Assembly (NCBI RefSeq): GCF_026427595.1
Contig: NZ_CP101527.1
Span: forward strand, 2,637,501-2,701,500
Length of the DNA: 64,000 nucleotides
Reading direction: 5' to 3'
Source: Alkalimarinus sediminis
GTDB lineage: Bacteria > Pseudomonadota > Gammaproteobacteria > Pseudomonadales > Oleiphilaceae
This document shows, one piece after another, positions 5,808-18,801 of this stretch (position 1 is the first letter of the stretch; each line of letters begins with the position of its first letter). The notes under the pieces were generated by a model. That model saw only the letters and a list, made by a program, of their open reading frames with translations. It did not search any database and was not told the origin of the DNA. The translations under genes were made by a program, and so were the position numbers.

Positions 5808-8348
5808 TCACTCAAGTTCCAGATAAGCACCGCCTGAATAAGACGCAAGCCATTTTCGTGCTTTAGCCTTTTGTTTTGATTGATAAAGTAAATGATTAAA
5901 TATTCTTCGAAAATTACTTATTAAAGTCTTTGAGTTTCCTTTAGCTCCATTCTCACCCATCAAGCGCAATACCTCTATAAACTCACGCTCAGACTTCATA
6001 CTTTCTAGTAACTTCATACAGGCTGCAGCTTGCAGTTCATCATCATCGAGATTATAGCTATAGGGCTCGAAAACATAAGTCACGCAAATTCTATCCATAA
6101 CTGCAGCTTTTGCTGAAGGAGTCAATAACTCTAATTTATAAGGGCTTGATAGCACCACCGAACACTCGCTCTTCACCTCACTCTGACCTGCAGATAATTT
6201 ATCCCATTCACCTGCGATTTCGTCTTCTGATAATTCTGCTACCCAGGATAAAGCCCTACCTAAGGTTATATGCAACCTTGTTATTTTTGAGATAATTTCA
6301 AATGCCTCAGATGTCACCCATTCCAAAAACCGAAAATCTGACTCTTCCAATGCCTGTCGCACAAACTGAATCAACTCAATCACCTGATCCACTTTTAACT
6401 CAGCCGCCACACCTCCTGCGCCACCGGGTCCAAACACCAACTGACCACTTAACAGGACAACAAACTTACCTCTCGAATAACCCACCGTAAAATCCAGCCC
6501 AAAACCCACGCCAAACGCGACAGAAACACTAGGTGAGATTTTTACCAACTCGCTAAAATTGGCGACCGTTGATTTAGCCACTCGGCCTGATTCAAGGCTA
6601 TTTTGGCTTATCGGCTTTGCCCACTCGACTGAAAGGTCGGCTTCGTTCTTTAGCATACCACCGGCAAATACATTGCCATTCATATCACCGCCTACATTGA
6701 GCTCGCCCGGTTTTGTGTCGACTCTCAACTTAGCCGATAGCATGGCGCAAGCGCCGACCGAACCTTGAACGGTAAGTACCAGTGAGGTTCTGAATACCCC
6801 ACAATGAAGCTGCTTTAACTCACCGCTGTTACCTTGATAGCTCAGTTTAAGTTCATGCCCTGCTTCGCTTGGCAGGCGTAATGTGGCATTGGCACTAGCT
6901 TTCAGTAAGCTGAACTCCGCGCTTGTTTCCCCTCCTAAATGAACCCGGCCCTTTTTAGGGTCATACTCACCCGCAAACTGCGCCCCTGCTGAAAACCTCA
7001 TCAACTGCGCTTCTGCGCTTGCAGTCAACTGTTTATCTTCAGGAACGATATCGCCATTTAGGCTGACTTTAAATAACTCTTTATTGAGCTGGTTAAAGAA
7101 ATTATCTTCTTTACTTTGCCACGATTTAAAAACAAGCTTCCCGCTGATATTTTCTTTTAAACCTTTTGCGGCTTGCTGGGCTGCACCTTCTATGCCCGCT
7201 CGATTTAATTTGAGCGATCGTTTTACATCTGCGATCGATATTTTTTGCCAATTCTTTTTAAACTGACTCAACGAGTCTCTGCGAATGTAGCTAAAGTTTT
7301 GGGAGCCGGTGCGCTTTATTTCGATAAGTTGATGTGAGTATCGCAACTCGGGCATTTGAAAGGCGGCCTCTACAGGCACCCTATCTGCCATGGTGTTATA
7401 AAATGCTTCTTGCTTTTGTTGTAAGCTCTTTTTATTGGCGTACAACTTATTTTGGCTGCTTTCATAATGGGCCAGTTCATCAATATCTCGTTGATAAAGC
7501 CGATCGTTATCGGTAAGCCAATGTAAAAATTTAAGCACCCTCAACCCGACCATTTGAGAGGCATTGCTATCCATCGTGTTTTCTATATTGAGTATCTTAA
7601 TTTCAATATCGGCTAGATGGTTTAATTCAGCAGGTGAAACATAGTTCACCATTCCTGTTTCGTCATTGAGGGTTTTAGCTTGTTCTTTTAATCGCTTTAT
7701 TTCATCTTCGCTGTCAGGCGGTGTTTTTTGCAGTGCGACCTTATAAGCGACTTCACTTTCAACCGCCTCTTTAAGCTTGCTAATTCTGCCTTCTTCACGG
7801 TTTAACAGTTTTTGCTTTTGTGTCAGCGTTTCTTTTAAATTATCGAGATTCGCTCCTAAATCTAAGCGCGTTTGCTGCAACGTTGCTAAATAGCGCATAT
7901 AAAACCCACGCGTTTCTGGCGCTAAGAGTCCGTGCTGTAGCTCTTTTTCGATAATATAAACATCACTGCTTACTCTTTTGTATCTGTTAAGCTGTCGTTC
8001 ATAGCGATGTTTAGCCAATGTAGCCTGCGCTTCATAGCGCTTTAATGGCGTTAAGCCTGAAGACGGCACTAAGGGCGGGATTAGCTTTTCTTCTTTGAGT
8101 GATTCCCAAGTCTTCTTTTTAACATCGATGATCGTTTCATTAGACTGTGAATAGGCATCCAACAAATTTTTAATAGGCGCTGATACAAAATTTTCTTCGT
8201 GCTCTAGCTCTTTGATTTGATCTTGGGTGAGGCAATACACCTGCGTATTATCACCTGTAACATGAACAAGATCTGTCCACTCTGTTTCGCACGCGGCAGG
8301 TGCTATCCCCGATGTGATATTTGGGCTCTCTTTGCAAATATTAGTCAT
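5808..8348 (-). CDS. Probable type VI secretion cargo effector, family not recognised
   Basis: 846 residues; the ATG at 8348 follows AAGGA. It is third in the operon after vgrG and the DUF4123 adaptor, the usual position of an adaptor-loaded effector. Residues ~75-330 are charged and predicted coiled coil. Residues ~400-640 are glycine- and serine-rich with alternating beta-type repeats (AGAQFAGEYDPKKG, VGGDMNGNVFAGGM). A hydrophobic glycine-rich stretch around 610-650 (VAFGVGFGLDFTVG, LVFGPGGAGG) precedes a helical C-terminal module. There is no signal peptide and I see no nuclease, lipase or peptidase motif, so a membrane-acting toxin is one possibility. The last ~210 residues recur as an orphan module at 1528-2157 and as two short remnants. 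Confidence 0.65.
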   Translation of the reverse strand: MTNICKESPNITSGIAPAACETEWTDLVHVTGDNTQVYCLTQDQIKELEHEENFVSAPIKNLLDAYSQSNETIIDVKKKTWESLKEEKLIPPLVPSSGLTPLKRYEAQATLAKHRYERQLNRYKRVSSDVYIIEKELQHGLLAPETRGFYMRYLATLQQTRLDLGANLDNLKETLTQKQKLLNREEGRISKLKEAVESEVAYKVALQKTPPDSEDEIKRLKEQAKTLNDETGMVNYVSPAELNHLADIEIKILNIENTMDSNASQMVGLRVLKFLHWLTDNDRLYQRDIDELAHYESSQNKLYANKKSLQQKQEAFYNTMADRVPVEAAFQMPELRYSHQLIEIKRTGSQNFSYIRRDSLSQFKKNWQKISIADVKRSLKLNRAGIEGAAQQAAKGLKENISGKLVFKSWQSKEDNFFNQLNKELFKVSLNGDIVPEDKQLTASAEAQLMRFSAGAQFAGEYDPKKGRVHLGGETSAEFSLLKASANATLRLPSEAGHELKLSYQGNSGELKQLHCGVFRTSLVLTVQGSVGACAMLSAKLRVDTKPGELNVGGDMNGNVFAGGMLKNEADLSVEWAKPISQNSLESGRVAKSTVANFSELVKISPSVSVAFGVGFGLDFTVGYSRGKFVVLLSGQLVFGPGGAGGVAAELKVDQVIELIQFVRQALEESDFRFLEWVTSEAFEIISKITRLHITLGRALSWVAELSEDEIAGEWDKLSAGQSEVKSECSVVLSSPYKLELLTPSAKAAVMDRICVTYVFEPYSYNLDDDELQAAACMKLLESMKSEREFIEVLRLMGENGAKGNSKTLISNFRRIFNHLLYQSKQKAKARKWLASYSGGAYLELE

Positions 8349-8399
8349 TTAGCATCCTTGCTATGTGATCAATGTTATTAGTGATTATGTGATATTGGG

Positions 8400-8984
8400 T
8401 TATTCATTCGCCGTCAATAGGGCATCTAACCATTGTGGTTTAAATACCAGATCAGAGGGTTGCGGCAGCGGTGCTTCTGTTTTTGGCAGCGTCATTTTTT
8501 GCCATGACTGCTGCTGAGCATTAAACCAAGTAATACTCTCAGTGCCACGGTAGAGTTCTGCGCATTCGTCTGACGTAAGTGCGGGCATTAATCGAGAAAG
8601 TGAAGTGGGGTCATAAAAACGGTAATGGAGATACCGTCCATCCTCGGTGGTAATCCACAGTAATCGGCTCAAGGTAGAACCCAACACTTCAAGTTCATAA
8701 GGTGATCGCAACCAAATAGCCGCGCCTTTGGGGCCTAATTCGCTCTCAAACAAGTGTAGGATATCTGATTCTATTGACACCTTTACCAAGCAAGGGCTGA
8801 TATCAAGCACATCTTGATATCGCGTATTTTTATATAAGGGATACCATTCTGGGTTATCAATATGCTGATACACCCACTGCAACACAGGCTCCATTTTGAC
8901 GCCGTCAATCAATAGATAATCAAATGCATCTGTTTCAGATAGGACGAGTGTTGCAAGCTGCAGATCGCTTTTTAATGATGACAT
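8400..8984 (-). CDS. DUF4123 T6SS effector adaptor/chaperone
   Basis: 194 residues. It matches the DUF4123 (Tap/Tec-type) family in length and pattern: an N-terminal LLIDGVK strand, WYPLYKNT, ISPCLVKV, and the YRFYDPTSL segment. Family members bind a specific effector and load it on the C-terminus of VgrG without being secreted. The gene starts 10 bases after vgrG and is followed 51 bases later by the 846-residue cargo gene, the canonical vgrG-adaptor-effector order. This context is the main reason for calling the downstream protein an effector. Confidence 0.85.
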   Translation of the reverse strand: MSSLKSDLQLATLVLSETDAFDYLLIDGVKMEPVLQWVYQHIDNPEWYPLYKNTRYQDVLDISPCLVKVSIESDILHLFESELGPKGAAIWLRSPYELEVLGSTLSRLLWITTEDGRYLHYRFYDPTSLSRLMPALTSDECAELYRGTESITWFNAQQQSWQKMTLPKTEAPLPQPSDLVFKPQWLDALLTANE

Positions 8985-8994
8985 AGACGACTCC

Positions 8995-11142
8995 TTAGCT
9001 CGCTACACAGGTGCAGGTTAGTTTTGCACACTGGCCGTTTTCATCTTGCATGCACTCATCGGCTAGTAACTGACTATTCGCAACCAATGCTTTTAAGTGC
9101 ACTCGCTTATTAATCGTAGACTGACCCGCCTCCGTAAACGCTAACTCCCCTCTCTCAAATTGCGCTTTCTCTGGACTTATCTCACTGTTTTTACCTGCCC
9201 CCTCCCTAACCACTTCAATTGCTGGCGAGGGTGCTGTAGGCGATGCCGCACTCGCAGGACCTGCGCTACCACCACCATTCAAATTAATGGTGGCGCCTTG
9301 AATCTGCACACCTGCCGGGCTTAGCTTAATAAAGGCTCCGCCTGCTTGTATGGTGAGTTCAACACCTGCGTCCAGTATCACTCTGTTACCAGACTTGATA
9401 TGAACATCGCCGCCTGCCTGCTGTTTAATAGAACCTGCTATTTTATCTTGCCGGTCACCATTGATCGTTAGATGATGCCCTGCCTGCGTTTGCACTTTAA
9501 TATCACCGGTGACACTTTGGTTGAACTCGCCATTTATTTGCTCGCACTGGTCTCTATCAACGATCAGATGACTACTGCCTCCGACATGGGTTTTATGATC
9601 TTGGAGAATTTTTAGGTCGAGATCTTTTTGAGCCTGTACAAAAATCTGCTCATGCCCTTTTTTATCTTCCACTCTAAGCTCATTAAACCCACCAGCTGGA
9701 ACGCTCTGACTCTTAAAAGTTGTGCGGGTCTTATGGTCGGGTAGTTTGTAAGGCGGCTTATGTAAATTGTGATATACACAGCCAGTTACTAGAGGTGTAT
9801 CAGGGTTGCCATCGACAAAATCAACAATCACCTCTTGCCCAACCCGAGGCAAGCTGACTGTACCCCACTGATTACCTGCCCATGCCTGTGAGACCCGCAA
9901 CCAGCAGGAGCTTTTGTTTTCTCGTTCCCAATGAAAATTGACTTTAATACGACCTAACTCATCGGTATAAATGGACTCTCCGGGGGCGCCATAAACAACC
10001 GCCGTCTGAGCCCCCTTTATAACCGGTTTTCTGTGCGTTCGTTGAGGCCGGTACTCCATCGTTGAAGGTAAACAAGAAACCGTTGTCTTAAATTGATAAC
10101 CACCACTACCCGATTGCTCTTCAAGTACCTGAGGCTGATCTCCACTTTGCTTAATAGCTGTCACTAAAAATTCTACGTTGTAGTCATCGCGTGGGTGCTG
10201 AGCAAGTGTAAATACAGAACCACTACTAAAAAAACAAACCGTACCTTTCGCCTCTATCTTGCAACTTGCAACCTTGTCTCTTGCCAATTCAACCTTAGAA
10301 AGACGATCACCTTCCTCTGCTTGTTTATACCCACCAGGATAGCTATAGCTTTCTAGTTTTGGAGTCGATTCATCTTGCGCACTCGACAGCAGTGAACGGT
10401 TGGGTTTCTCATAGTTGTAATCGTTAAATGTAATCTGGTCATGGGTAACTTGCTGATTCCAACTAAGGACATGAAGAGTGGCTTGATCACCTGCCTGCCC
10501 GCTATTCCCTTGAAACCTTATCTCTCTGGTTGGCGTTAACGGCCGAAATGACGATGGGTTATCTGAAATAACCATAATAGGTTGACGTTCACTCTGCTCA
10601 AAATGAAAGTGAATACCCTCTTCTTCTAATAGACGAGACACAAAGTGCCACTCGTTCTCATCATATTGAACACAGTATTCCCGCTGAGGGTAATGACTGC
10701 TAAGTTCAAAGCGATAGCTCTGACTATCAAGGCCCGCCTCATCAAAAATCTGCTGCACAATAGTCGCCACATCTTGATCTTGAAAGATTCGACAACCGTG
10801 CCGGTGCTGAAGCCACTTAAATTGAGGGACTAACTTAAACGTATAAAATGCGAAACGGCGCTGAATAGCCCCCTGAGTTACCCCATAGACAGCGCCCATG
10901 ATGGTGCGGCTATGCCCTTTGTCATCTTTAATTTGAAATGTGGCCTGACGACCGATCAAATCGTTTAACGATAAGGAGTCATTTTCACAAGCGATATCAA
11001 TAGAGTATTCATAAAGCGATGAAATTGCTTCGTGTCCGTCAAAATGAACAACCCTAAGTAGGTCATTAATACCGGCTACGGAAAACATTAGACGAGCATT
11101 CCAGTGCCGCTGATGAAGCACCGAAGGCGTGAGATTTGACAT
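8995..11142 (-). CDS. vgrG: VgrG/TssI spike protein of the type VI secretion system
   Basis: 715 residues from the ATG at 11142, which is preceded by AAGGAAGAG; an in-frame ATG at 11184 would add 14 residues but has no clear ribosome-binding site. Order of domains: gp27-like hub (residues ~20-370, with EREYCVQYDE-type segment REYCVQYDENEWHF), gp5 OB fold (~400-480, LGRIKVNFHWERE and LPRVGQEVIVDF), then a beta-helix needle with repeated GD/GS motifs. A Pro/Ala-rich linker (~610-625) leads to an unusual tail ending in a cluster of four cysteines (CMQDENGQCAKLTCTC). The tail probably docks the adaptor and cargo. No other structural T6SS genes are in the window, so this is an auxiliary vgrG island. 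Confidence 0.93.
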   Translation of the reverse strand: MSNLTPSVLHQRHWNARLMFSVAGINDLLRVVHFDGHEAISSLYEYSIDIACENDSLSLNDLIGRQATFQIKDDKGHSRTIMGAVYGVTQGAIQRRFAFYTFKLVPQFKWLQHRHGCRIFQDQDVATIVQQIFDEAGLDSQSYRFELSSHYPQREYCVQYDENEWHFVSRLLEEEGIHFHFEQSERQPIMVISDNPSSFRPLTPTREIRFQGNSGQAGDQATLHVLSWNQQVTHDQITFNDYNYEKPNRSLLSSAQDESTPKLESYSYPGGYKQAEEGDRLSKVELARDKVASCKIEAKGTVCFFSSGSVFTLAQHPRDDYNVEFLVTAIKQSGDQPQVLEEQSGSGGYQFKTTVSCLPSTMEYRPQRTHRKPVIKGAQTAVVYGAPGESIYTDELGRIKVNFHWERENKSSCWLRVSQAWAGNQWGTVSLPRVGQEVIVDFVDGNPDTPLVTGCVYHNLHKPPYKLPDHKTRTTFKSQSVPAGGFNELRVEDKKGHEQIFVQAQKDLDLKILQDHKTHVGGSSHLIVDRDQCEQINGEFNQSVTGDIKVQTQAGHHLTINGDRQDKIAGSIKQQAGGDVHIKSGNRVILDAGVELTIQAGGAFIKLSPAGVQIQGATINLNGGGSAGPASAASPTAPSPAIEVVREGAGKNSEISPEKAQFERGELAFTEAGQSTINKRVHLKALVANSQLLADECMQDENGQCAKLTCTCVAS

Positions 11143-11354
11143 ATTTCTCTTCCTTGAGTCAGAGGCATTGGAGCCCCTTTTCATTAAAATTCAATGTATT
11201 AACAAGCCATCACCCTGCTTGATACAACTGAATGCTATTCATCCTGAATAACCGCCACGGATTATAAATCATAACAACGCCAAAAGTAACCGACTCGCCT
11301 ACCAAACTATCGCATCACCCTCCTCCATCTCCACTAAAACGTGACCAGTCACTC

Positions 11355-11402
11355 ATCACACAATATCTATATCAAAATTATTTGATATAGATATTGTGTG
11401 AT
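11355..11402. promoter_or_regulatory. Perfect 22-bp inverted repeat, probable SahR operator
   Basis: Two perfect 22-base arms (left arm ATCACACAATATCTATATCA plus AA) flank a 4-base ATTA centre. The repeat ends 27 bases before the sahR start codon. SahR and other ArsR-family regulators bind AT-rich palindromes, and the inner part ATATCnnnATATCAAA/TTTGATAT fits this type. The perfect symmetry and position suggest autoregulation. A similar full palindrome was not seen upstream of metK or ahcY. Confidence 0.65.
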
Positions 11403-11429
11403 TCTAAATCCACTGATAAACTGCCCGGC

Positions 11430-12455
11430 ATGTTAAATAACCTAATCTCCAATTCGCCAGAGACAGTCAACCCGACAACAGAGCATGCACGCACTGTTGC
11501 CACCCAGTGTCTGTCATCTATTGCACCAATATTGAAAGCCAGCGGTGATCCGCTACGACTCGAGATTTTGCGTGTATTGCAGCGAGATACGTTTGGAGTA
11601 ATGGAACTATGCAATATCTTTGATAGCCGCCAATCAGGTATGAGCCATCACTTGAAGGTACTGCATAAAGCGGGTCTTGTTGAAACGCAGCGTGAAGGCA
11701 ATTCAATATTTTACCGTCGCCCTATTAAGCAAGATGATGAAATTAATGATGAGTTAATCCATTCACTATTTGGAATTATCGACCAAACAGATATATCAGT
11801 CGCAACAGCTGAGCGCATTAACCTGATTAAAGAGCAAAGAGCGGAGCAATCTCAGGCTTTCTTCTCTCGTTATGCCGATAAATTCAAAGAGCAACAGGAG
11901 CTCATCGCACTATTCGAGCAGTATGCCGTGCCTGTTGTTGATTTAATCAATGCTCATGATTTCGACGATAACGCTACAGCAATGGAGATCGGACCAGGCG
12001 AAGGGGCGTTTTTAAACGAATTATCGACACGATTTAACAAAGTTTACGCGCTCGATAATTCAGCAGGTATGCTAAACAAGGCAAAAACACATGCCGACGA
12101 GAATAAGCTCACCAATATTGAGTTTGTATTGGGTGAAAGCAGTAAAGCGGTGCAGGAAAATATGTCAGTCGATGCCATCGTGCTGAACATGGTGTTGCAT
12201 CACATTCCCAGCCCAGCGGATATATTTACAGATTGCGCACAACTATTGAATGATGACGGCATTATGTTGATCAGCGACCTAAGCCACCACGATCAGAACT
12301 GGGTAAAAGAGAACTGCGGCGACCTATGGTTAGGCTTTGAAAGCGAAGAGTTATCTCTGTGGGCGAAGAACGCAGGATTAGACGAAGGCGAAAGTTTATA
12401 CATCGGCCTTCGCAACGGATTTCAGATTCAAGTAAGAGAATTTATTAAGCGTTAA
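11430..12455 (+). CDS. sahR: SahR-type regulator: ArsR HTH fused to SAM-dependent methyltransferase
   Basis: 341 residues from the ATG at 11430. An in-frame TTG at 11394 lies inside the palindrome and is unlikely. Residues ~25-100 are an ArsR winged helix (SGDPLRLEILRVLQ, QSGMSHHLKVLHKAGLV, EGNSIFYRR). Residues ~170-290 are a class I methyltransferase domain with motif I EIGPGEGAFL. Proteins with this fusion are SahR, which senses S-adenosylhomocysteine and controls the SAM cycle in Proteobacteria. The next genes, metK, ahcY and metF, are exactly that regulon, which supports the call. The methyltransferase fold is thought to serve as the SAH sensor rather than as an enzyme. Confidence 0.85.
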   Translation: MLNNLISNSPETVNPTTEHARTVATQCLSSIAPILKASGDPLRLEILRVLQRDTFGVMELCNIFDSRQSGMSHHLKVLHKAGLVETQREGNSIFYRRPIKQDDEINDELIHSLFGIIDQTDISVATAERINLIKEQRAEQSQAFFSRYADKFKEQQELIALFEQYAVPVVDLINAHDFDDNATAMEIGPGEGAFLNELSTRFNKVYALDNSAGMLNKAKTHADENKLTNIEFVLGESSKAVQENMSVDAIVLNMVLHHIPSPADIFTDCAQLLNDDGIMLISDLSHHDQNWVKENCGDLWLGFESEELSLWAKNAGLDEGESLYIGLRNGFQIQVREFIKR

Positions 12456-12490
12456 CGAATAGTATTAAAAAGATACTGATAATTATTACT

Positions 12491-12557
12491 GTCACCCTCG
12501 CGAAGGCGGGGGTCCATACTTTTTGAATACATGGATTACCGCCTTCGCGGTAATGAC
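12491..12557. repeat. Palindromic repeat (CGCGAAGGCGGG family), copy 1
   Basis: GTCACCCTCGCGAAGGCGGG and, 50 bases on, ACCGCCTTCGCGGTAATGAC form a long imperfect inverted repeat. The same design is at 13816-13890 and half of it at 15385-15407. It lies between sahR and metK and would fold into a strong RNA hairpin that could act as a terminator or attenuator. Confidence 0.7.
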
Positions 12558-12631
12558 AATTAAAGTTATGGCTAGATTTATAAACCTAAACACAAATTGA
12601 TAGAACCACACTATTAAAGTAGGAAAAAACA

Positions 12632-13792
12632 ATGAGCGAATATTCTTTATTTACTTCAGAGTCTGTATCTGAAGGCCATCCAGATAAAATGGCAGATCAA
12701 ATCTCTGATGCCATTGTTGATGCCATCATAGCGGAAGACAAGCACTCTCGTATCGCCGTAGAAACAATGGTTAAAACGGGCATGGCGGTTATTGCTGGTG
12801 AAGTACGTACCAGCACTTATATCGATCTTGAAGACCTCGTACGTGAAGTCATTTTGGATATCGGCTACAACAGCTCAGAAGTTGGTTTCGATGGTGCCTC
12901 TTGTGCAGTTCTAAACGCAATTGGTAAGCAGTCTGCCGATATCGCAATGGGTGTTGATGAAGGCAGCAACAAAGACCTCGGTGCTGGTGACCAAGGGCTT
13001 ATGTTTGGTTATGCGACAAACGAAACAGAAGTTTTAATGCCTGCGCCGATTTTCTACTCTCACCGCCTTGTTGAGCGCCAGGCACAGTTGCGTAAAAAGG
13101 GCGTTCTACCTTGGTTGCGCCCAGATGCCAAGAGCCAGGTGACACTGCGTTATGAAAACGGAAAACCCGTTGCGGTTGACGCAGTTGTACTTTCAACTCA
13201 GCATGACGAAGGTATTTCTTTAGGTGACTTGCGTGAAGCTGTATTGGAAGAAGTGGTAAAACCAGTGCTTCCTGCAGAGTGGCTTCACAGCGACACCCTA
13301 TTCCACATCAACCCAACCGGTAACTTTGTTATTGGCGGACCTGTTGGCGACTGTGGTTTGACCGGTCGTAAAATCATCGTTGATACCTACGGCGGCATGG
13401 CTCGTCACGGTGGTGGCGCATTCTCAGGCAAAGATCCATCAAAAGTTGACCGATCAGCAGCCTACGCGGGACGTTATGTTGCGAAAAACATCGTGGCAGC
13501 TGGCTTAGCTGACCGCTGCGAAATCCAGGTATCTTACGCGATTGGTGTTGCAGAACCGACGTCAATCTCAATCAACACATTCGGCACCAACAAGATCGAA
13601 GAGTCAAAAATCGAAAGCTTGGTTCGTGAGCACTTTGACCTACGCCCTCAAGGTATCATCGACATGCTAGATCTACGTCGCCCAATTTACCGTGCGACAG
13701 CAGCATACGGTCACTTTGGTCGTACTGAGCCAGAATTTACTTGGGAACACACTGATAAAGCAGCAGTTTTGAAAGCGGCTGCAGGTCTGTAG
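12632..13792 (+). CDS. metK: S-adenosylmethionine synthetase
   Basis: 386 residues, the usual bacterial length (E. coli 384). It makes SAM from methionine and ATP in the cytosol. The family signatures are visible: [13 protein letters not shown] with the ATP-binding histidine at the N-terminus, [12 protein letters not shown] near residue 117, and [16 protein letters not shown] near residue 260. AGGAA lies ahead of the ATG. It is the first enzyme of the metK-ahcY-metF set, downstream of sahR. About 175 bases with a palindromic repeat separate it from sahR, so it probably has its own promoter. Confidence 0.97.
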
Positions 13793-13815
13793 ATTAGCAA
13801 TTACTAGGGGCTCCG

Positions 13816-13890
13816 GTCATTCCCGCGAAGGCGGGAATCCATAGATCGAAGTCCTATCAAACAATGGATCCCCGTCTTCGCGGGGATGAC
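13816..13890. repeat. Palindromic repeat (CGCGAAGGCGGG family), copy 2
   Basis: GTCATTCCCGCGAAGGCGGG...ATCCAT and ATGGATCCCCGTCTTCGCGG...ATGAC form imperfect inverted arms of 27 bases around a 21-base centre. This is a typical paired REP-like element in the metK-ahcY gap. A partial extra GGGGATGACAG follows at about 13906. Confidence 0.75.
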
Positions 13891-13973
13891 GGTCAAATAT
13901 TCGTGGGGATGACAGTCCAGGCTCAGTAAGCCCTCCCCTCGTAGAATGGCAAACAGATACAGGAAAGAACATA

Positions 13974-15371
13974 ATGAGCGCAGCAATAGAAGCAGGTTTT
14001 ACCGATTATAAAGTCGCCGATATTTCACTAGCGGACTGGGGGCGTCGCGAAATTGAGATCGCTGAAGGAGAAATGCCAGCATTGATGGCGCTTCGCCGCA
14101 AGTACAAAGAAGCACAGCCACTAAAAGATGCGCGCATCATGGGTTGTATTCACATGACGATTCAAACTGCCGTACTAATCGAAACATTGGTTGACCTTGG
14201 CGCAGACGTTCGTTGGTCTTCATGTAATATTTTCTCTACTCAAGACCATGCCGCTGCCGCTATTGCTGCCGCTGGCATCCCAGTTTTTGCGTGGAAAGGC
14301 GAAACAGAAGAAGAGTTTTTATGGTGTATCGAGCAAACCATTCTGTCTGAAAAAGACGGTAGTGACGTTTGGAACGCAAACATGATTCTTGATGATGGTG
14401 GCGACCTAACTGAAATGGTACACAACAAATACCCTGCAATGCTTGATAGCATTCACGGTATTTCTGAGGAAACCACTACAGGTGTTCACCGTCTACTAGA
14501 GATGCTTGAGAAGGGCGAGCTTAAAGTACCTGCAATCAACGTAAACGATGCGGTAACAAAGTCTAAAAATGACAATAAATACGGTTGCCGTCACAGCCTA
14601 AACGATGCAATCAAGCGCGGTACTGATCACCTGCTTTCAGGTAAAAAAGCATTGGTTATCGGTTACGGCGATGTAGGTAAAGGTTCTGCAGCTTCTTTGA
14701 GTCAAGAAGGCATGATCGTCAAGGTAACTGAAATTGATCCTATCTGCGCAATGCAAGCATGCATGGACGGCTTTGAAGTAGTATCTCCATTTATTGACGG
14801 TATTAATGACGGCACATTGGCGTCAATTAACACTGAACTTCTACAAAAGACTGACTTGGTTGTCACAACAACCGGTAACTCAAATGTATGTGACAAGAAC
14901 ATGCTTCAGTCACTAAAAAGCGGGGCAGTTGTTTGTAACATTGGTCACTTCGACAACGAAATCGATACGGCATATATGCGTGAGAACTGGGAGTGGCAAG
15001 AAGTTAAACCACAGGTTCACAAAATTGTTCGTAATGCTGCAGAAAACGACCATCTGATACTGCTTTCTGAAGGCCGATTGGTTAACTTGGGGAATGCAAC
15101 AGGTCACCCTTCACGTATTATGGATGGCTCTTTTGCTAACCAAGTATTAGCTCAAATCTACTTGTGGGAAGCGAAATTCGCAGACCTGCCAGCAGACGAA
15201 AAAGCGGCAAACCTATACGTTAAAGTACTACCGAAGAAGCTTGATGAGGAAGTCGCAAAAGATATGGTTGAAGGGTTTGGTGGCGTGTTAACGCGCCTAA
15301 CCACAGAACAGGCAGACTACATCAATGTACCAGTTGACGGTCCATACAAGCCAGAAAGCTACAAGTACTAA
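13974..15371 (+). CDS. ahcY: S-adenosylhomocysteinase
   Basis: 465 residues, matching the proteobacterial long form. It splits S-adenosylhomocysteine to homocysteine and adenosine with bound NAD, removing the inhibitor of methyltransferases. Visible signatures are [17 protein letters not shown] near the N-terminus, [17 protein letters not shown], the NAD-binding [15 protein letters not shown] (about residue 225-240) and the C-terminal [11 protein letters not shown]. It lies downstream of metK and upstream of metF, consistent with coordinated control by SahR. The start follows CAGGAAAGAAC. Confidence 0.97.
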
Positions 15372-15384
15372 TTAGTAATAAGTC

Positions 15385-15407
15385 GATCCCCGCCTTCGCG
15401 GGGATGG
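15385..15407. repeat. Palindromic repeat, single hairpin copy
   Basis: ATCCCCGC and GCGGGGAT form a perfect 8-bp stem around CTTC. This is half of the element found at 12491-12557 and 13816-13890, located between ahcY and metF. Confidence 0.65.
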
Positions 15408-15455
15408 CAGACTTTACTAAGTACCATTAGGGTAAAACCCCCAAGGAATTTAGAC

Positions 15456-16325
15456 ATGAATTCGCAAAGACCATTCAAACAACGCTACAGTTTTGAGTTT
15501 TTCCCGCCAAAAACACCTGCGGGGATGGAAAAACTTCAAACCGTCCGTGATGAGCTGGCAAAGCGTAACCCAGACTTTTTCTCTGTAACCTATGGTGCAG
15601 GCGGCTCTACTCAAGAGCGCACTATTAATACAGTGGTCAATCTGCACAAACAAGGTATCTCCACTGCACCTCATTTGTCATGTATCGGCGCAACAACTGA
15701 AACGTTGACCGAGCTTCTGGATTTGTACAAAGCTAACGACATTCAACGTATTGTGGCACTTCGTGGTGACTTGCCTTCTGGTATGGGCGCTCATGGCGAA
15801 CTACGGTACGCAAATGACTTAGTTGAATTTATTCGCAAGCATAGCGGCGATCATTTTAACATTGAAGTGGCAGCCTACCCTGAGTTTCACCCTCAGGCCG
15901 CTAACGCAGAGCAAGACCTGATTAACTTCAAGCGAAAAGTTGATGCCGGTGCCAATAGTGCGATTACACAGTACTTCTACAACATAGACTCGTACTTCTA
16001 CTTTGTCGATCGAGTAGAAACCATGGGTATCGATATCCCTATCGTACCGGGCATTATGCCTATCACTAATTACTCAAACCTAATCAGGTTCAGTGATATG
16101 TGTGGCGCAGAAGTCCCTCGCTGGATTCGCAAGCAGCTAGAAGCCTACGGCGATGACATTGAAAGCATCAAGAAGTTTGGTGAAGAAGTCGTGACCGAAA
16201 TGTGTGAGCGTTTATTGGATGAAGGCGCACCCGGCTTGCACTTCTACACACTTAATCAGGCAGAGCCTAGCTTAAATATCTGGGACAACTTGAGCCTAAG
16301 TGATCAAGAAAAAATCGCATTCTAG
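15456..16325 (+). CDS. metF: 5,10-methylenetetrahydrofolate reductase
   Basis: 289 residues, the bacterial MetF length. This FAD-dependent TIM-barrel enzyme reduces methylene-THF to methyl-THF, the methyl donor for homocysteine remethylation. Signatures include FEFFPPKTPAGMEKL, SVTYGAGGST, ALRGDLP, VAAYPEFHPQA and ITQYFYN. AAGGAATTTAG precedes the ATG. The gene closes the SAM-cycle cluster metK-ahcY-metF; the methionine synthase itself is not in this window. A hairpin follows at 16341. Confidence 0.96.
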   Translation: MNSQRPFKQRYSFEFFPPKTPAGMEKLQTVRDELAKRNPDFFSVTYGAGGSTQERTINTVVNLHKQGISTAPHLSCIGATTETLTELLDLYKANDIQRIVALRGDLPSGMGAHGELRYANDLVEFIRKHSGDHFNIEVAAYPEFHPQAANAEQDLINFKRKVDAGANSAITQYFYNIDSYFYFVDRVETMGIDIPIVPGIMPITNYSNLIRFSDMCGAEVPRWIRKQLEAYGDDIESIKKFGEEVVTEMCERLLDEGAPGLHFYTLNQAEPSLNIWDNLSLSDQEKIAF

Positions 16326-16340
16326 TGGTTTTTTGCTGAA

Positions 16341-16367
16341 ACCAAGGAGCACAAATGACTCCTTGGT
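16341..16367 (+). terminator. Hairpin after metF, possible terminator
   Basis: ACCAAGGAG and CTCCTTGGT form a perfect 9-bp stem with a 9-base loop shortly after the metF stop. The U-tract is poor, so intrinsic termination is uncertain. Confidence 0.45.
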
Positions 16368-16437
16368 TCTAGTCGCACCTCCTTTCATCACGACCACGAA
16401 TCATATTCCCCAATACACTAGTCTATATTGGACTCTT

Positions 16438-16516
16438 TTCGCGCCAAAGTGGCGCTCCTACACAAGGTCCCGCATGTTTATTGAGCGTTTGTAGGAGCAG
16501 CTCTCAGCCGCGAAAC
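16438..16516. repeat. REP pair (GTAGGAGC family)
   Basis: TTCGCGCCAAAGTGGCGCTC followed by CTACA, and 27 bases later TGTAGGAGCAGCTCTCAGCC followed by GCGAAAC, are two REP units in opposite orientation. They resemble the Pseudomonas GTAGGAGC...GCGAA REP family. A single unit recurs at 43201-43226. With the flanking element at 16538-16623 they fill most of the 403-base metF-rsmE gap. Confidence 0.65.
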
Positions 16517-16537
16517 ATTGTTAATGGATACTTTCAC

Positions 16538-16623
16538 CGCCTCGCAGCGGAATCAGGGTTTATAACCTCACGCCAACCCCACCCTCCTTAACGCCTGTCG
16601 TTCCTCCTTTCATCACGACCTTT
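16538..16623. repeat. Degenerate copy of the dispersed ~100-bp repeat
   Basis: CGCAGCGGAATCAGGG at the left and GTTCCTCCTTTCATCACGACC at the right match the inner left part and the right end of the element at 407-506. The GTAGCC ends are degraded. A further isolated right end lies at about 16373-16390. Confidence 0.5.
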
Positions 16624-16728
16624 CATCCGGTCATATGTAAATTTTCTTCACTTTTCACTGAGTTATCCTGTACAGTATATCTCCAACTAGTTATACGCTT
16701 ATTCAATCTAAGTCTAAGAAAAAATAGC

Positions 16729-17463
16729 ATGAGAATACCCCGAATATACAGTGCCGGCGATCTCGCTGAGAATACATCTGCCGAGCTTGATGCTGCTGCA
16801 TCTAACCATGTAGGCAAAGTGTTGCGCATGAAGCCCGGCCAATCACTTATCTTGTTCAATGGCAGTGGTGTCGACTACACAGCAACTATCACCTGCGTTA
16901 CAAAAAAACATGTGATTGCATCTATTGAGAGCGCCACCGAAATACCATCAGAGTCCCCCCTTGCTACTCATATTGGTCAGGTGATGTCTCGTGGTGACCG
17001 AATGGATTACATGATTCAGAAAAGCACTGAACTGGGCGCAACCGAGATAACGCCATTAACCAGTGAACGCTGTGAGGTAAAACTCAAGGGTGATCGAGAA
17101 GAAAAAAGGGTTAAGCAGTGGCAACAAATAGCAATTAGTGCAGCAGAGCAATGCGGGCGCTCTAAAGTACCTCTTATTCACCCAATAACCTCGGTAGACG
17201 ACTGGGTGGATAACAAGCCTGAAGACTCTCTGGGTTTGGTGCTTCATCACCGCACAACACAGCAACTAACCGGTATCGATAAACCACAACGTGTCTGTTT
17301 GCTGATAGGCCCTGAAGGCGGGTTATCAGAGGCTGAAATAGAATCCGCCATTAATAAACAATTTATCGCGACCACCTTCGGACCTCGCGTTTTTAGAACC
17401 GAGACCGCACCAGTAGCTGCGTTATCAGTACTGCAATGGTTATGGGGCGACTTTAATCGATAA
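16729..17463 (+). CDS. rsmE: 16S rRNA (uracil(1498)-N3)-methyltransferase
   Basis: 244 residues. RsmE is a SPOUT-class enzyme that methylates U1498 of 16S rRNA using SAM. It has an N-terminal PUA-like RNA-binding region (MRIPRIYSAG, HVGKVLRMKPGQ) and a C-terminal trefoil-knot catalytic domain with the family motifs LIGPEGGLSEAEIE and FGPRVFRTETAPVAAL. Length and motif order match E. coli RsmE. As a SAM user it fits beside the SAM-cycle genes, but it is separated from metF by repeats and a 403-base gap and is probably transcribed separately. Confidence 0.95.
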   Translation: MRIPRIYSAGDLAENTSAELDAAASNHVGKVLRMKPGQSLILFNGSGVDYTATITCVTKKHVIASIESATEIPSESPLATHIGQVMSRGDRMDYMIQKSTELGATEITPLTSERCEVKLKGDREEKRVKQWQQIAISAAEQCGRSKVPLIHPITSVDDWVDNKPEDSLGLVLHHRTTQQLTGIDKPQRVCLLIGPEGGLSEAEIESAINKQFIATTFGPRVFRTETAPVAALSVLQWLWGDFNR

Positions 17464-17538
17464 CAGTTGCGACCTAATAAACAGGTGCCTAGATAGCTGC
17501 CGCTTGCGACACAGAAGAACATAACACAGGACAATAAA

Positions 17539-18801
17539 ATGGAACAAAGATCCAATATAAGAACACTGGTAAAGCGTTTTCTGCCTCTAATTATTGTTGC
17601 TATCACCGTGTTGATCATCTACGCACTTATGGCCTCTCGACCGACACCCCCAACCAAAGAGCAAGAAGAAAAGGCTTGGGCTGTTAGCACCGAGGTGGCA
17701 GCTAGAATACCTGTTCACCCCCAACTGGAACTATTAGGTACCGTCGAGTCACCCTACACAACACAACTCTCAGCTGCTATTAATGCCGATGTTGTCAATG
17801 TACCCGCTAGAGAGGGTGCCTTTGTGGCAAAGGGAGAGATATTAGTCGAGCTTGACGAAGCTGAAGCGAGGCTCAGCTTGCAGCAAAAGCAAGCCGATGT
17901 CATTGAACTTGAAGCCTCAATCATAGCTGAGAAGAATCGCTATAAATCAGATTTGGCGGCATTAGAGAGCGAACAATCGCTACTGGAAATAGCCAAACGT
18001 TCAGTTGAGCGTCAAAGAAAACTTGCAAAATCAAACCTTACCTCGCAAGAGCTAATAGATAATTCCAGCAACAAACTCGAACTACAGGCACTATCCGTCA
18101 ACAGCAGAAAACTCAGCATTGCTGACCATACTAGTCGACTGAATCAACTTGAAGCTAAGCTTGCTCGTGCTAAAGCTAATGTTTCTAATGCAGAGTTAGA
18201 CCTGTCTAGAACAAAAATCACCGCACCTTATGATGGGCAAATAACTCAAGTCAATGTATCCCCAGGAGGTCGAGTCCGCCCAGGAGAGCCAATCGTTGAG
18301 CTCTACGACAGCAGTCAAATAGAGGTTCGCGCTCAAATTCCCGACAAATCTATCAACCTCGTCAAATCTGCGCTTAAAAATGGTGAGCCACTAAAAGCAT
18401 CTATTACGATTTATGGCGAGGAAGTAACGCTAATGCTTAGTCGTCTATCGGGTAAAACCAACTTGGGATCAGGCGGGGTAGATGGTTTATTCAAAGCAAC
18501 CAGTGATGACCCTCCTTTTATTATTGGCAGTTCAGTAAAGCTAACTCTTGACCTACCGCTTATCGATAGCGCAATCACTGCCCCTATCTCGGCAGTATAC
18601 GGCACAAACCGAATATACAGCGTAAAAGACCAACGACTAACTTCTGTAGATGCAACCATAATGGGTGCTTATTTTGATAAAAGTGGTCAACAGCGTCTTA
18701 TTCTCGATACCCCGATACGCGACGGTGAGACATTCATTACCACTCAGCTGCCCAATGCTATTAATGGTTTAAAAGTGATTGTTAGAGGGGCACGCTTATG
18801 A
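17539..18801 (+). CDS. RND efflux periplasmic adaptor (membrane fusion) subunit
   Basis: 420 residues. One N-terminal membrane anchor (FLPLIIVAITVLIIYALMA, about residues 14-33) is followed by a barrel-sandwich/lipoyl segment (VPAREGAFVAKGEILVELDE), a long helical hairpin coiled coil (about 110-225) and beta-barrel domains (ITAPYDGQI). This is the HlyD/AcrA-type architecture that links an inner-membrane RND pump to an outer-membrane channel. Its stop overlaps the start of the RND permease gene by 4 bases (ATGA), so the two are translationally coupled. No outer-membrane factor gene is adjacent. The substrate cannot be told from sequence. Confidence 0.92.
   Translation: MEQRSNIRTLVKRFLPLIIVAITVLIIYALMASRPTPPTKEQEEKAWAVSTEVAARIPVHPQLELLGTVESPYTTQLSAAINADVVNVPAREGAFVAKGEILVELDEAEARLSLQQKQADVIELEASIIAEKNRYKSDLAALESEQSLLEIAKRSVERQRKLAKSNLTSQELIDNSSNKLELQALSVNSRKLSIADHTSRLNQLEAKLARAKANVSNAELDLSRTKITAPYDGQITQVNVSPGGRVRPGEPIVELYDSSQIEVRAQIPDKSINLVKSALKNGEPLKASITIYGEEVTLMLSRLSGKTNLGSGGVDGLFKATSDDPPFIIGSSVKLTLDLPLIDSAITAPISAVYGTNRIYSVKDQRLTSVDATIMGAYFDKSGQQRLILDTPIRDGETFITTQLPNAINGLKVIVRGARL

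Follow-up and report, generated by a model that had tools for sequence, protein, structure and literature searches.

A conserved 24-bp core within a 48-nt perfect palindrome as the probable autoregulatory operator of a SahR-type repressor in Alkalimarinus sediminis

Introduction

Why does a perfect palindrome with arms of 22 nt stand in front of sahR in Alkalimarinus sediminis, and how much of it is likely to be read by the regulator? In the 64-kb stretch of the genome analyzed here (the window), the two arms of this palindrome (11355-11402) are 100% complementary across a 4-nt loop, which confirms the perfect 22-base arms of the original prediction. Base composition would lead one to expect about 9.5e-8 sites with 22-nt arms in 64 kb, and the longest other perfect arms in the window, with loops of 0 to 20 nt, are 10 nt long. 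The 3' end of the palindrome lies 27 nt from the sahR ATG (11430).

SahR is described by Leyn et al. (2014; PMC4239095) as a regulator that responds to S-adenosylhomocysteine (SAH) and has a 20-bp palindromic site, with sahR, ahcY, metH, metH2, metF, and metK as core targets and with two gammaproteobacterial groups, one made up of Oceanospirillales and various others and one of Pseudomonadaceae. The same paper describes SamR of the Xanthomonadales, which has a 24-bp palindrome sharing the consensus ATC-10 nt-GAT and whose regulons include metK as the sole SAM-cycle gene. In a paper on Ensifer aridi, SahR is treated as a predicted repressor (PMC8877191).

Materials and Methods

The ortholog search covered 58 genomes (that of A. 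sediminis and 57 relatives), 51 of which had a match at E <1e-50; 50 genomes (its own and 49 relatives) were analyzed, and G045 (38% identity) was left out. The 50 sahR upstream regions form the sole unbiased promoter sample, as the extra sites are biased for promoter counts because they were selected for a right-arm TTG and a near-perfect core. Arm statistics were calculated without L048 and L060 (cores of 13/20 and 15/20). Twenty-two strand-rows without sahR downstream were not counted among the 69 sites; 6 of these are reverse readings of counted sites, and the other 16 have 0 to 4 pairs beyond the core, so that with them included long arms would make up a smaller share. L081, L086, L091, and L108 were dropped as coming from genomes already represented, L086 being a different site with no sahR downstream.

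Results

The domains and neighbors of the gene behind the palindrome bear out its assignment, in the original prediction, to the promoter of a SahR-type gene preceding metK-ahcY-metF (Table 1). The ArsR-family HTH, a feature of SahR membership, was found as matches to PF01022 (E = 1.1e-9) and PF12840 (E = 2.3e-9). Residues S72 to K76 of the HTH are invariant in 50/50 SahR sequences (numbered from the ATG at 11430), as are E186, G188, G190, and G192, which we take to be motif I of SAM/SAH binding. Invariant residues of this kind only permit SAH as the effector. In a search of solved structures, ArsR-type proteins and methyltransferases were matched separately, and no match covered the two domains together. 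A single named relative was found, at 88% identity, an Oleiphilaceae MAG of the order Oceanospirillales. Of the loci of 33 relatives, all have metK following sahR, 30 contain ahcY, and 25 contain metF; some of the stretches end early.

Table 1. Positions of the palindrome, its parts, and the surrounding genes in the window
Feature	Position	Strand	Remark
vgrG-like gene with domains of a type VI secretion spike	8995-11184		divergent from sahR
Left palindrome arm	11355..11376	+	outer part 11355-11366 absent from most genera
Core operator CTATATCAAAATTATTTGATATAG, SahR-class site	11367..11390	.	at least 17/20 specified letters in 48/50 sahR upstream regions
Right palindrome arm	11381..11402	+	-35 box within outer part
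Predicted -35 box TTGTGT	11394..11399	+	TTG invariant in five genus members
Predicted -10 box TAAACT	11417..11422	+	TG at 11414-11415 (extended -10), 17-nt spacer
sahR, ArsR-type HTH and SAM-methyltransferase-like domain	11430..12455	+	predicted leaderless
metK	12632..13792	+
ahcY	13974..15371	+
metF	15456..16325	+

Conservation singles out the center of the palindrome. The 24-bp core CTATATCAAAnnnnTTTGATATAG recurs with at least 17 of its 20 specified letters in 48 of the 50 sahR upstream regions (own genome and 49 relatives), the exceptions being L048 (13/20) and L060 (15/20), and with it the palindromic putative site of about 20 bp before the regulator's own gene, another feature of SahR membership, is present. 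The functional part of the palindrome is therefore most likely this core, smaller than the full 48 nt; the original prediction saw the site correctly but overread its length, the 24-bp core being the conserved part. By description, rather than in a letter-by-letter comparison, the core fits the account of SahR sites given by Leyn et al. (PMC4239095), and it also fits the ATC-10 nt-GAT consensus of SamR (PMC4239095).

Double cores in tandem precede sahR in L038, L043, L046, L050, and L051, all of genus g4, with centers 29 to 30 bp apart, and are plausible as a form of two-dimer binding. That spacing is close to three helical turns. Counting further sites of at least 15/20 letters across the loci of 33 relatives, tandems were found before sahR in L043, L046, L050, L051, and L077. 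For the suggestion that two dimers bind the palindrome itself, nothing positive was found: conservation covers the 24-bp core, and the five double-site loci have their sites in tandem rather than as one long palindrome. Extra SahR-class sites also occur in relatives before metK (L073, 17/20) and before ahcY (L085).

A putative promoter accompanies the core. The order of core, TTG, spacer, and TAnnnT appears in 37 of the 50 sahR upstream regions, compared with a mean of 0.49 and a maximum of 4 in 500 shuffles. Within these 37 promoters, the TTG stands exactly +16 from the core center in 35, the spacer between TTG and TAnnnT is 16 to 18 nt (17 nt in 29), and an ATG follows the -10 box by 6 to 9 nt in 36, the exception being L043; all 36 of those ATGs open the sahR frame, with more than 250 codons. 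In the window the core ends 3 bp 5' of the -35 box and the ATG lies 7 nt 3' of the -10 box. The outer right arm is probably conserved because it holds the predicted -35 box.

The usual distance from -10 box to start puts the beginning of the transcript at the sahR ATG or one base before it, with the core centered about 51 bp further 5'. The sahR mRNA is predicted from this layout to be leaderless, and because of the start predicted there, the palindrome would go untranscribed from this promoter. A general promoter scan did not report the sahR promoter, whose boxes score below the cut-off of the scan.

Thirteen upstream regions lack the main layout. Ten of them offer the core's own TTGAT(A/G) as a possible -35 box, the -10 box then lying about 12 bp closer, and this arrangement makes up the larger part of the 13; three relatives (L046, L050, and L051) have neither layout. 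Over all 72 sites the arrangement with the -35 box inside the core was found 11 times, against a shuffle mean of 4.3 and a maximum of 14, a count that is not significant and stays within the shuffle range because the TTG is fixed in the core. The two layouts are about one helical turn apart, and both would place the operator at the -35 contacts of the polymerase, which fits a blocking repressor.

Positions 8001 to 18000 of the window, including sahR-metK-ahcY-metF, held no second site with at least 15/20 core letters, and because no second site was found on the operon, one promoter probably controls all four genes. At this threshold and in this range, the original observation that no similar palindrome precedes metK or ahcY holds. 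Its idea that both are controlled through the sahR promoter is likely to be right, as neither gene has a site of its own and metK adjoins sahR in 33/33 loci. Between sahR and metK (12491-12557) and between metK and ahcY (13816-13890) lie GC-rich inverted repeats of the type GTCA-C-C-CGCGAAGGCGGG, which we take to be REP-like; hairpins of this kind could weaken or attenuate readthrough.

The original prediction had also looked to other sites near SAM-cycle genes as a check on the regulator, and none was found in the operon, in 6 kb around metH of the same genome (at least 15/20 core letters), or at the two next-best matches. Across the genome, 51 sites had at most 3 mismatches to the 20-bp core, one of them perfect, versus 29 for a reversed control; the two sites with 2 mismatches both lie inside ORFs not recognized as SAM-cycle genes, while the 48 with 3 mismatches were counted without individual inspection. 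The looser pattern ATATC-N10-GATAT gave 7 sites versus 9 for its reversed control. The lack of other sites does not refute SahR control, because SAM-cycle genes sit in this operon.

Beyond the core, complementarity between the arms has a two-peaked distribution. At 69 sahR sites in 36 genera, 0 to 3 further pairs were counted in 53, 4 in 1, and 5 to 14 in 15, and 33 of the 69 have no further pair at all. A contiguous inverted left copy of at least 5 nt occurs in 12 of the 36 genera (shuffled left arms, mean 2.3 and maximum 8 in 5,000), and a smaller first set that excluded the window's genus had long arms at 5 of 43 sites (shuffle mean 0.54, maximum 4 in 2,000). The outer left arm is judged dispensable because 24 of the 36 genera have none. 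A CAA mirroring the TTG of the -35 box is present at 16 of 56 sites, compared with 0 to 9 at the other 24 left positions, and in 13 of these 16 the intervening letters are complementary as well (exceptions L033, L042, and L049). All five members of the window's genus retain the left ATATC, a hint that the left arm may be under some constraint.

Closely related sequences bear on the order in which the arms appeared. The clearest case is genus g49, in which three species have the promoter side in common: L111 has a 14-nt right outer arm that matches that of L112 at 13/14 positions and that of L113 at 11/14; the left arm of L111 is an exact 14-nt inverted copy of its right arm, and the left arms of L112 and L113 are unrelated to it. 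Most simply, the left arm was gained in L111, two losses being the alternative, and comparison with the two sister species suggests that in this genus the right arm came first and the left arm later. In the window's genus, TTGAA in L014 and L015 corresponds to TTGTG in L011 to L013, with the matching left arm largely present; here a change of the right arm toward a left arm already in place is only suggested, in a direction that we infer.

Several other features were noted around these sites. A mirrored divergent promoter was rejected as the cause of the symmetric TTG, as the same rule found one at just 1 of 15 extended sites (L114). In L060, the region upstream of sahR contains a further inverted repeat, with 19 pairs and a loop of 8 nt. 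It lies near a possible -10 box and off the operator center, and it duplicates, further downstream, half the operator together with the adjoining sequence. In the window, the vgrG-like gene is directly upstream, with 170 bp between its start and the palindrome. An AACGTGA block at 11338-11344, ending 10 bp 5' of the palindrome here, is invariant in 5/5 genus members and is possibly a second regulator site; 5' of this block the alignment is poor in two of the five.

Discussion

Core conservation, promoter layout, operon order, and the distribution of the arms are the observations from which we read the palindrome, with a probability of about 83%, as an operator through which a SahR-type repressor controls its own expression, with a dimer on the core, release by SAH, a single leaderless promoter, and a left arm produced by template-switch copying. 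A SahR dimer would bind the 24-bp core and hinder RNA polymerase at the adjoining -35 box. Accumulating SAH would then bind the methyltransferase-like domain and release SahR, allowing sahR-metK-ahcY-metF to be transcribed jointly from the sahR promoter as an mRNA that starts at or beside the sahR ATG. The outer arms would be unneeded for recognition, and template-switch copying would account for the left arm here as in several other genera.

Here metK, ahcY, and metF, all core targets in the described SahR regulon, follow sahR and would be under its control; the system differs from that regulon in the single site found in this genome, at the front of the operon, in the longer perfect palindrome that encloses the core, and in the predicted leaderless start. 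The two features that mark SamR, a Xanthomonadales host and a regulon whose sole SAM-cycle gene is metK, are both absent: ahcY is in the operon, and the relative belongs to Oleiphilaceae/Oceanospirillales, not to Xanthomonadales.

Three other accounts of the palindrome have to be weighed against this one. Long arms that recur in 12/36 genera, a mirrored CAA enriched at 16/56 sites, and an ATATC kept on the left in five of five genus members are what one would also see if SahR recognition were extended, with TTG/CAA 16 to 18 bp from the center touched on both sides by the dimer, by the methyltransferase domains of the dimer, or by another dimer, and autorepression thereby tightened. We regard this as unlikely, though the strongest of the three, as the left arm is absent in 24/36 genera, pairing stops at the core in 33/69 sites, and 13 of the 16 mirrored-TTG sites are complementary between core and TTG, which contact with the TTG alone would not need. 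It is improbable that SahR instead activates from the core. A core centered about 51 bp 5' of the predicted start, just 5' of the -35 box rather than covering it, and a -35 offset fixed in 35/37 promoters would suit an activator, but the fixed offset could also reflect shared descent, and ten relatives may have the -35 box inside the core (by a weak control, 11 against a shuffle mean of 4.3 and a maximum of 14). In Ensifer aridi, moreover, relative expression of sahR is reported as highest in the sahR deletion strain (PMC8877191).

The RNA hairpin in the sahR leader that was originally proposed is hardly credible, even with a folding energy of -33.6 kcal/mol versus a shuffle mean of -12.7. The conserved promoter lies on and 3' of the palindrome and would start the transcript at or beside the ATG, the upstream neighbor vgrG faces away, and no T run follows the stem. 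A hairpin or riboswitch was rejected on this promoter layout and on the lack of any Rfam match at gathering scores in positions 8000 to 18000 of the window.

Returning to autorepression at the core, the extra length of the palindrome most likely reflects template-switch copying between the arms. Quasipalindrome template switching is described as making imperfect inverted repeats more perfect, one arm serving as the template for the other (PMC7202029, PMC8794818), and contiguous copying, as proposed for the long SahR arms, would be its product; those accounts concern lacZ reporters and RNA genes, whereas here the process is proposed for repressor operators (PMC7202029, PMC8794818). Contiguous copying leaves unexplained 3 of the 16 mirrored-TTG sites, in which the inner letters are not complementary. 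Among open-licence papers, none of the titles found dealt with template switching or quasi-palindromes in operators, the "template switching" of PMC12724241 being a cDNA method in the part consulted. Judged by title, nothing relevant turned up on PA0547, on leaderless promoters, or, among the titles listed, on SahR together with leaderless.

The regulator and its operator class are already known, so that the arm-copying pattern alone is mildly novel. Tentatively, and at somewhat less than even odds, palindromic operators like that of SahR may be recurrent hot spots of template switching, with the polymerase folding back on the core and using the arm that bears the -35 box as template for its partner, or conversely, such that many long perfect operators are scars of mutation rather than signs of extended recognition and promoter boxes can be moved or duplicated in the process. 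The arm-copying idea can be tested on sister species that differ in having the left arm. Operator length may then be a poor guide to regulatory complexity, as arms may grow by copying. For A. sediminis, the analysis points to the 24 bp that are likely to count, to the probable position of the promoter, and to a reason why a single control point may suffice for the operon.
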